Shown one piece after another: positions 35,440 through 54,972 of a stretch of DNA of 64,000 nt (position 1 is its first letter; every line of letters starts with the position of its first letter). Under the pieces are notes generated by a model. It saw only the letters and a program-made list of their open reading frames with translations. It was not told where the DNA came from and ran no database searches. Source of the stretch: Natronomonas moolapensis 8.8.11 (GTDB lineage: Archaea > Halobacteriota > Halobacteria > Halobacteriales > Haloarculaceae); NCBI RefSeq assembly GCF_000591055.1, contig NC_020388.1:186001-250000 (forward strand). Reading direction: 5' to 3'. The translations under genes and the position numbers were made by a program.

Positions 35440-35490
35440 ATCCACGGATGCGATGGTGTGGGAGAAAAACGCTTCGAAGGCGTGCTCCGA

Positions 35491-35632
35491 GCGCCAGCGA
35501 GGAGCACGCATTGGCGAGCGGCGACGACGGAGCCGCGAGCGGTGAGGCGAGAGCGCCAGCGAGGAGCACGCATTGGCGAGCGGCGACGACGGAGCCGCGA
35601 GCGGCGAGGCGAGAGCGCCAGCGAGGAGCACG
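35491..35632. repeat. 62-bp tandem repeat, 2.3 copies
   Basis: Two near-identical 62-bp units (35491-35552, 35553-35614) and 18 bases of a third. Each starts GCGCCAGCGAGGAGCACGCA and contains GGCGACGACGGAGCCGCGAG. They fill the space between the small membrane protein and carS and could be transcribed with either. One base differs between the copies (GGTGAGG / GGCGAGG). Confidence 0.9.
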
Positions 35633-35709
35633 CGATCGAATCCGCGTACGTTCACGACTCGACAGAGCCGCCCCCTGTGGAGCCACCGTCGACCGAACCG
35701 CTGGGACAG

Positions 35710-53452: not shown

Positions 53453-54316
53453 TCATGCCGCCACCTCGACGTTTCGGACGCGGGCCTCGAGCCAATCGAC
53501 GACGGCGGCGGGGACGTCGGTTTCGGTGACCTCGTTCAGCGCTTTGAATTCGACAGTGTGGTTCACCTCGTGGACGGTGTAGGAGTCGCCCGTCTCCATG
53601 AGATCGACTCCGAGCAGGCCGCCCCCGACCGCCTCGGAGGCGCGCTCGACGAGGTCGGCCATCTCGGGGGTGATCTCGATCGGTTCGGTCTCGGCACCGC
53701 GGGCGGCGTTCGTCAGCCAGTGCTCCGAGGAGCGGGCCATCCCCGCGATCGGCTCGCCGTCGGTGGCGACGACGCGGATGTCGCGGCCCGGCTTCTCGAC
53801 GAACTCCTGGATGTAGAACACCTTGTGTTCGTAGTGGCCGAGCGTCTCTTTGTGTTCGAGAATAGCCTCGGCAGCGTCCCGCGAGTCGATTTTCGCCATC
53901 AGCCGCCCCCACGACCCGATGACGGGCTTCAGCACGCAGGGGTAGCCGAACTCCTCGATCGACTCCATGGCTGCTTCCTTGGTGAACGTGACCTCGGTCG
54001 CCGGCGTCGGCACGTCCGCGTTCGCGAGTACGAGGCTGTTTCTGGCTTTGTCGGCACAGACCGCCGCCGTCTCCGGCCCGTTCACCACGGGGACGTCGTA
54101 GGCGTCGACGAACCGGGTGATGTACCGCGATCGGCTGGTCGCGAGACAGCGGTCGACGACGATGTCGAGCCCTTCGAGGACCTCCGGCGGTTCGTGGACG
54201 CCGAAACGTTCCTTTCGCACGTCGATCTTCGTGACCTCGTGGCCCCGGTCGCGGAGCTCGCTCAAAAGAAGCTTCTCGTCGCGGCGGATCCGCGAGTAGA
54301 GCACGCCGACGTTCAC
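53453..54316 (-). CDS. argX: Glutamate-[LysW] ligase (ATP-grasp)
   Basis: 287 residues, LysX/ArgX type of the RimK-like ATP-grasp superfamily. YPCVLKPVIGSWGRLMAKI (ATP-binding loop), YIQEFVEKPGRDIRVVATDG and DSYTVHEVNHTVEFKALNEV (metal site) are typical. It joins glutamate through its amino group to the C-terminal Glu of ArgW, protecting it for the next steps. The GTG at 54314-54316 overlaps TGA of the last mini-ORF of the 59-bp array (GTGA) and follows GAGGTGA by six bases, so its translation should depend on that chain. Confidence 0.94.
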   Translation of the reverse strand: MNVGVLYSRIRRDEKLLLSELRDRGHEVTKIDVRKERFGVHEPPEVLEGLDIVVDRCLATSRSRYITRFVDAYDVPVVNGPETAAVCADKARNSLVLANADVPTPATEVTFTKEAAMESIEEFGYPCVLKPVIGSWGRLMAKIDSRDAAEAILEHKETLGHYEHKVFYIQEFVEKPGRDIRVVATDGEPIAGMARSSEHWLTNAARGAETEPIEITPEMADLVERASEAVGGGLLGVDLMETGDSYTVHEVNHTVEFKALNEVTETDVPAAVVDWLEARVRNVEVAA

Positions 54317-54723
54317 GAAGCGTCACCTCGTGACGGTTCGTGTGCCCGGGACGCCCTCGGCGGCCAGACGTTCACGAAGCGTCACCTCGTGACGGTTCGT
54401 GTGCCCGGGACGCCCTCGGCGGCCAGACGTTCACGAAGCGTCACCTCGTGACGGTTCGTGTGCCCGGGACGCCCTCGGCGGCCAGACGTTCACGAAGCGT
54501 CACCTCGTGACGGTTCGTGTGCCCGGGACGCCCTCGGCGGCCAGACGTTCACGAAGCGTCACCTCGTGACGGTTCGTGTGCCCGGGACGCCCTCGGCGGC
54601 CAGACGTTCACGAAGCGTCACCTCGTGACGGTTCGTGTGCCCGGGACGCCCTCGGCGGCCAGACGTTCACGAAGCGTCACCTCGTGACGGTTCGTGTGCC
54701 CGGGACGCCCTCGGCGGCCAGAC
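54311..54723 (-). repeat. Seven identical 59-bp tandem repeats between argW and argX
   Basis: Units begin at 54311, 54370, 54429, 54488, 54547, 54606 and 54665, with no base differing among copies; a diverged eighth boundary starts at 54724. The unit includes GAGGTGACGCTTCGTGAAC on the minus strand, that is a Shine-Dalgarno, a six-base spacer and GTG. The first unit begins exactly on the argX start region, so the array looks like an expansion of the gene's own initiation site with the spacer behind it. Identity of all copies suggests recent or ongoing expansion. Confidence 0.97.
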
Positions 54724-54729
54724 GTTCAC
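54313..54729 (-). other. Chain of seven coupled 20-codon mini-ORFs within the repeat array
   Basis: Each mini-ORF is GTG plus 19 codons and TGA, 63 bases in all, encoding VNVWPPRASRAHEPSRGDAS (first residue made as Met). Spans are 54667-54729, 54608-54670, 54549-54611, 54490-54552, 54431-54493, 54372-54434 and 54313-54375. Because 63 minus 59 is 4, each TGA overlaps the next GTG as GTGA; the last overlaps argX. Each start has GAGGTGA six bases before it (the first has GGGGTGAT). No known peptide family was recognised. Whether the peptides are made or stable is unknown. Confidence 0.6.
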
Positions 54730-54785
54730 GAGCCATCACCCCTCGCGGGCGTTCCGGCCGGGCGGCGGTCCGCGCCGACATCCAT
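54726..54785 (-). CDS. Mini-ORF zero at the argW end of the repeat array
   Basis: From ATG 54783-54785 the frame reads MDVGADRRPAGTPARGDGS and stops with TGA at 54726-54728, overlapping the GTG of the first repeat mini-ORF. Its ATG is five bases after the argW stop region and a GGGGGAG within the argW 3' end (codons for W-G-E) could be its ribosome-binding site. The C-terminal RGDGS resembles RGDAS of the repeat peptide, so it may be the ancestral version of the unit. Confidence 0.45.
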   Translation of the reverse strand: MDVGADRRPAGTPARGDGS

Positions 54786-54789
54786 CGCC

Positions 54790-54972
54790 TTACTCCCCCC
54801 AGTCCTCTTCCAGTTCGGGAGCCTCCTCGAGGGCGATCGGGTCGACAGAGACGACCTCGAGTTCGGCGCCCGTAATCGGACTGTCGATAATCTCGCCGAC
54901 CTCGACGTCGGCGGGGATCTCGATCTCTTCGCCCGTGATGGGATCTTCCGTGGTGATCGTGTCTTCCGTCAT
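54790..54972 (-). CDS. argW: Amino-group carrier protein LysW/ArgW, cysteine-free form
   Basis: 60 residues ending in the diagnostic EDWGE, whose last Glu carries the amino acid during synthesis. The two zinc-binding CPxCG-like knuckles of ordinary LysW are replaced by EDPITGEEIEIP and DSPITGAELEVV, so there is no Cys in the protein, yet the spacing, GEI and ELEVV core are kept. The domain presumably folds without zinc. It is very acidic. TATA-like TTTTAAG (minus strand, 55000-55008) suggests a promoter of its own inside the arg cluster. Confidence 0.9.
   Translation of the reverse strand: MTEDTITTEDPITGEEIEIPADVEVGEIIDSPITGAELEVVSVDPIALEEAPELEEDWGE

Follow-up and report, generated by a model that had tools for sequence, protein, structure and literature searches.

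A putative translation relay of mini-ORFs between argW and argX in haloarchaea, expanded into a seven-copy array in Natronomonas moolapensis

The closest known systems to the arrangement described here are mycobacterial MIRUs, such as the 77- and 53-bp units between senX3 and regX3, which likewise stand in tandem in an operon gap (PMC12548453). Each MIRU contains a short ORF that meets the next start through a −4 nt overlap (PMC12548453, PMC4213456), and copy composition differs between strains (PMC12548453, PMC4213456). In Haloferax volcanii, 9 of 9 tested overlapping or close gene pairs were strictly coupled (PMC6728339), and reinitiation fell substantially at 13–14 nt and was abolished at about 20–22 nt (PMC10666635); coupling in E. 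coli can be achieved with only the final 15 nt of the preceding gene (PMC10666635). Arginine synthesis in Natrinema requires both the carrier protein ArgW and its partner ArgX, which acts on the carrier (PMC10433800), and this joint requirement gives a reason for their linked synthesis. Here we describe the junction of these two genes in Natronomonas moolapensis 8.8.11, where a chain of mini-ORFs with MIRU-like overlaps fills a gap of 473 nt, and compare it with the same junction in other haloarchaea.

The region lies in a 64,000-nt window of the genome (contig NC_020388.1, positions 186,001 to 250,000), and its features are listed in Table 1. Seven copies of a 59-bp unit, reading TGGCCGCCGAGGGCGTCCCGGGCACACGAACCGTCACGAGGTGACGCTTCGTGAACGTC on the minus strand, stand between argW and argX and are 100% identical both by reading the sequence and by TRF (period 59, 7.2 copies, 100% matches). 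Each unit consists of GAGGTGA, a 6-nt spacer (CGCTTC), GTG, 20 codons and TGA; the resulting frames are 63 nt long and spaced at 59 nt, with each TGA sharing GTGA with the following GTG. Ahead of them, a related 19-codon frame starts 4 nt past the argW TAA, which is the largest gap in the chain, and ends in a GTGA overlap, as do all later links. A program walking from stop to start recovered the identical eight-ORF chain from argW to argX. These results confirm the initial annotation, which had described the seven identical units with their GAGGTGA, spacing and overlaps, and the related leading frame with no break up to the argX GTG. Every link falls within the range expected of coupled chains (an overlap of 4 or 1 nt, or a distance within ~10 nt), and in every unit the internal start is preceded, 6 nt on its 5′ side, by an SD (GAGGTGA) complementary to the 16S 3′ end, CTGGATCACCTCCT. 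The fraction in the TRF count of 7.2 reflects the fact that the argX start, GTGAACGTC, doubles as the unit end, the two having the codons GTG AAC GTC in common; the array is therefore a tandem duplication reaching into the first three codons of argX. The argW-end context GGGGAGTAAGGCGATG is common to most Natronomonas junctions, and a counterpart of relay ORF 0 (M-x-V/A-G-A/T...) was found in most of the genus.

Table 1 Features of the argW–argX junction in window coordinates. On the minus strand a frame starts at its higher coordinate (unit GTG starts at 54729, 54670, 54611, 54552, 54493, 54434 and 54375; argX GTG at 54316).
Feature	Coordinates	Strand	Evidence
argW, carrier protein, 60 aa, ends ...EEDWGE	54790..54972	-	ORF and sequence
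argW last codons GGGGAG-TAA, SD-like stretch 7 nt before first relay start		-	sequence
Relay ORF 0, 19 codons, MDVGADRRPAGTPARGDGS	54726..54785	-	sequence, chain walk
Array, 7.2 identical 59-bp units	54308..54731	-	TRF
Relay ORF 1, VNVWPPRASRAHEPSRGDAS	54667..54729	-	sequence, chain walk
Relay ORF 2, identical to ORF 1	54608..54670	-	sequence, chain walk
Relay ORF 3, identical to ORF 1	54549..54611	-	sequence, chain walk
Relay ORF 4, identical to ORF 1	54490..54552	-	sequence, chain walk
Relay ORF 5, identical to ORF 1	54431..54493	-	sequence, chain walk
Relay ORF 6, identical to ORF 1	54372..54434	-	sequence, chain walk
Relay ORF 7, identical to ORF 1, TGA overlapping argX GTG	54313..54375	-	sequence, chain walk
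Hairpin CACGAAccGTCACgagGTGACgcTTCGTG, pairs argX SD (GAGGTGA) and start codon	54314..54342	-	RNA model, covariation
Identical copies of the hairpin	+59, +118, +177, +236, +295, +354	-	RNA model, 7 matches
argX, ArgW-glutamate ligase, 287 aa	53453..54316	-	ORF

We extracted argW–argX junctions from ~110 loci and scored a gap as bridged when small ORFs connected the argW stop codon to the start codon of argX, with every stop-to-next-start distance between −6 and +8 nt, using dinucleotide shuffles of the same gaps as the null. Homologs of argX were present in 60 of 60 genomes searched, with orthologue-level matches in most, and the two genes lay less than 20 nt apart in 23 of 84 distinct junctions. 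Across haloarchaea, 51 of the 62 distinct junctions with a gap of at least 20 nt, which include several per genus and so are not mutually independent, were bridged (12.1 ± 2.5 in shuffles); a wider coupling window of −14 to +12 nt gave 57 of 61 (20.6 in shuffles). When each genus or lineage was represented by one junction, 18 of 22 were bridged as against 3.3 (P ~ 5 × 10−16 under the shuffle null). Some chains arise by chance because high-GC DNA has few stops, and the shuffle null for individual junctions reaches 0.6–1.0. Different genera have unrelated bridging peptides, examples being MDVGANRRSDARSPVDGETS in Natronomonas, MAVPGAVSGVDTLPRRGRAGRPTPRPASPNGGVRP in Haloglomus and MGAVGTYIQS in Halocatena, while Halalkalicoccus has a two-step chain with the final peptide MNTQTATRFSVRRSRWTRYE. 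This natural two-step relay 5′ of argX was seen in Halalkalicoccus and a related MAG (L056 and L055), and in both the second frame is also 20 codons long, with several Arg codons and a Trp codon (MNTQTATRFSVRRSRWTRYE, MNIHTVTDFLARHTRWRQYE). In Haloarcula and Natrinema the relay consists of one or two frames. Three Natronomonas loci (L116, L117 and L118) hold a second argX-like gene, ~65% identical, with no adjacent argW detected. No description of relay ORFs at argW–argX was found in the literature searched.

Control gaps behaved differently. The neighboring argH–argW gap at the same loci was bridged in 1 of 90 cases versus 3.8 expected, and among 107 other same-strand gaps of 20–200 nt, defined by home-made gene calls in 20 sampled stretches covering 464 kb of the N. 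moolapensis genome, 10 were bridged versus 9.9 expected. The latter count leads us to reject the idea that operon gaps of this genome are bridged in general and, since control gaps stay at chance level, the relay is not a by-product of GC-rich sequence. Among the junctions compared, the relay is strongest at argW–argX. The initial annotation had proposed that mini-ORFs couple argW and argX translationally; sequence comparison strongly supports this, with chains conserved beyond chance in most lineages (51/62, 18/22) and not at control junctions. With the wide window, weaker excesses were seen at gapped argC–argB junctions (12 of 30 bridged versus 5.6) and at argB–argD junctions (11 of 12 versus 7.8); given the argC–argB excess, relay ORFs may also exist elsewhere in the arg operon.

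We consider it probable (roughly 0.7) that the mini-ORFs act as a translation relay through which argX stays coupled to argW. How ribosomes would use such a relay we infer as follows. A ribosome ending argW would reinitiate on relay ORF 0, whose start lies 4 nt further on, and would then be handed through the −4 nt GTGA overlaps, each unit with its own SD, up to argX; the function would lie in the act of being translated, with the peptides as by-products. The relay would thereby span a 473-nt gap that termination–reinitiation otherwise could not cross. Because coupling is lost at larger distances, a drifting argW–argX gap would uncouple the genes, and a mini-ORF would restore the link. In that case the coupling of two specific genes would be held class-wide by throw-away frames even as the genes drift apart, and the junctions would provide a natural ladder of 0, 1, 2 or 8 relay steps for measuring the per-step efficiency of reinitiation in archaea.

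Short frames in an arginine operon, with peptides that contain ~14% Arg, also bring to mind leader-peptide attenuation, in which Arg codons would stall ribosomes under arginine scarcity and so alter argX expression. We regard this as very improbable: Arg makes up 14.5% of residues in the relay frame as against ~21% in the two other frames, the relay peptides vary between genera, and the unit contains no intrinsic terminator, since none of its T runs exceeds 2. An Arg leader-peptide attenuator was accordingly rejected, there being neither Arg enrichment nor a terminator-like stem with a T run.

Two features extend the initial annotation: the relay is conserved in relatives, and the unit contains a hairpin. 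Four other Natronomonas (G001, which is CBA1123, G002, G004 and G018) carry the unit once, placed after the first relay ORF and before argX. There it is exactly 20 codons long, resembles MNAE..ALRAHE.SRGD.S and overlaps its neighbors as in N. moolapensis; judged by these sequences, the repeated unit arose by amplification of the single 20-codon unit seen in the other species. In all five, a 29-nt hairpin of 14 pairs encloses the SD together with the start codon of argX. Pairing is kept in 95.7% of pair cells over this set, 6 pairs have changed on both sides, and the covariation score is 0.471, compared with 0.208 ± 0.054 in shuffles (0 of 500) and at most 0.114 when the structure is slid. The whole argW–argX gap has a fold z of −4.8. 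Elsewhere the picture is different: an SD-sequestering hairpin general to haloarchaeal argX was rejected, the mean fold z outside the five hairpin species being −0.31. Membership of a known RNA family was likewise rejected, Rfam returning only sub-threshold matches, none of them within the array.

A strong inverted repeat in every unit would equally suit a DNA-level operator array, with the palindrome as the binding site of a regulator and the ORFs incidental. Yet the arms differ between species and are kept as complementary pairs, including G-U pairs present on the argX strand, and the RNA model scores 61 bits on the sense strand versus 28 bits on the antisense strand. The G-U pairs and the sense-strand advantage therefore favor RNA over a DNA operator and, as genera without the hairpin still have the relay, we consider an operator array very unlikely. 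The same substitutions bear on the initial annotation's alternative of a product role for the repeated 20-residue peptide, which would then be a small functional molecule synthesized from tandem copies. Identical copies and the retention of exactly 20 codons in all five hairpin units would fit such a role, but the 20-codon length follows from the 59-nt unit, no related peptide occurs in other genera, and the between-species changes alter amino acids yet preserve base pairs, so that the structure rather than the peptide appears to be constrained. This alternative is disfavored, and we hold it to be very improbable. Within the relay that we prefer, the 29-nt hairpin would fold the SD and start of the next frame and leave them open mainly to a ribosome coming from upstream. 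SD motifs in haloarchaeal 5′-UTRs reportedly do not promote de novo initiation (PMC6728339), and a hairpin block of free entry may therefore be partly redundant.

We next consider where the unit occurs. The N. moolapensis genome (a single contig of 2,912,573 bases) has no second locus with the unit, and the seven-copy array was found in 1 of 146 family genomes, that of N. moolapensis. Strong matches to the covariance model are confined to argX of five genomes, and a palindrome pattern adds just two isolated matches. Away from argX, other family genomes gave short partial matches to the unit only, one of which (L122) was inspected and judged to be chance, and the viral contigs searched held no exact copy. 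A dispersed or mobile element was therefore rejected, with strong matches at argX only and looser patterns giving unrelated chance matches. The number of hairpin units differs from species to species (0, 1 or 7), with 7 in one N. moolapensis strain. On the ArgX tree its distribution within Natronomonas is patchy and needs five changes: CBA1123 (L012) has the unit and its near-identical sisters L009 and L011 are without it. On this sequence evidence the unit appears to be gained or lost as a whole. The nearest relative (L006, 94% ArgX identity) is without the hairpin unit, which is therefore not essential to the relay. One further Natronomonas genome has the hairpin ends in shortened form, AGCTCACGGCGCCTCGCGCCGTGAACGTC (L133, G010:C8:169224-169250), possibly a decayed relic or a chance match; no orthologue-level argX match was found in that genome, at 88% completeness.

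Why the unit is repeated sevenfold in N. moolapensis is a separate question, and the answers below concern the repetition. Any copy number preserves the relay, because the unit is self-coupled and its length of 59 nt equals 2 mod 3. Seven copies would add seven reinitiation steps, and ArgX per ArgW should therefore drop if per-step efficiency is below 100%. Eight intermediate frames would mean nine reinitiations; at an illustrative 80% per step, ArgX would be made at 0.8^9 = 13% of ArgW.

The number itself could be wrong. The 8.8.11 assembly from which it derives combined 454 reads, cosmid-end Sanger sequences and PCR closure (PMC3623002), and identical repeats are hard to count in a 454-based assembly closed by PCR. 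We nevertheless think an assembly artefact improbable, given that short-read assemblers tend to collapse arrays rather than invent them, that the 424-bp array is shorter than a Sanger read, and that four other species each have one copy of the unit.

If the count is right, the repetition may be neutral: one unit would be functional and its sevenfold repetition a tolerated accident of replication slippage or unequal crossover, with no effect on ArgX visible to selection. This account, to which we give even odds, is compatible with the relay. All copies in the array are identical, which implies that the expansion is recent or homogenized; the array is present in just this one of the 146 family genomes; and quasi-palindromic units are prone to slip. 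Moreover, an unrelated perfect array (75 bp × 4.7 copies, 100% identical) was present in 400 kb of sampled genome sequence, making neutral slippage a serious rival. That array lies at C1:908333-908688 (L154:8333-8688), is apparently intergenic and shows that argX is not the only site of clean tandem expansion in this genome; TRF also reports, at 35489-35633 of the window, a 62-bp unit in 2.3 copies that are 98% identical. Against neutrality, the array is placed exactly on the conserved relay and preserves it, although tolerance predicts likewise.

Alternatively, as the initial annotation had also suggested, copy number may set the argX:argW ratio, so that slippage variants would be selectable and the array would act as a heritable dial, as the relay again allows. 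A copy-dependent effect would be natural under the relay architecture, and the presence of 0, 1 or 7 hairpin units between species and the contrast between CBA1123 and its two sisters are consistent with it. Per-step reinitiation efficiency could, however, approach 1, and we regard a dial as unlikely. The composite reading, in which a class-wide relay of non-conserved mini-ORFs has become, in N. moolapensis, a hairpin-gated array serving as a slippage-adjustable dial for ArgX, is slightly less likely still.

In yeast, serial short uORFs of GCN4 gate amino-acid biosynthesis by reinitiation, with scanning 40S subunits crossing long spacers. The argX relay resembles GCN4 in having short ORFs in series and differs in that its stops and starts overlap. 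Termination–reinitiation in Haloferax volcanii shares with the relay the ATGA/GTGA overlaps, an SD inside the upstream frame and a limit of ~20 nt (PMC6728339, PMC10666635); those pairs couple two proteins, whereas the argX relay would use non-conserved mini-ORFs, up to eight of them, as stepping stones. In Salmonella, translation of mgtQ, a short frame in the operon gap between mgtC and mgtB, likewise opens structure at the downstream RBS, but mgtQ depends on its own acidic codons and alternative stems and is not known to form a tandem array or a −4 chain (PMC8092293). Bicistronic designs and synthetic upstream ORFs similarly use a short ORF to deliver a ribosome and melt structure (cited in PMC12548453), although they are synthetic and have a single unit. 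With MIRUs the argX array has most in common: a tandem unit of 40–100 bp in an operon gap (59 bp × 7.2), an internal ORF with −4 overlaps to its neighbors, and a unit length of 2 mod 3 (77 and 53 in MIRUs, 59 here), so that coupling survives changes in copy number. Yet MIRUs are dispersed over many loci and apparently mobile, inserting at gene start codons, whereas the argX unit is found only at argX, in its own genome and in the genus; unlike a MIRU, it is archaeal, has a covarying hairpin over the SD and start, and lies at a junction with class-wide, unrelated relay ORFs. Although MIRU-like in how it works, the array is not classed among the MIRUs. If copy number matters, the array would give an archaeon a heritable dial acting at translation, as a parallel to the mycobacterial MIRUs, and such a dial would be a MIRU-like device born in place from the start region of a gene rather than by insertion.
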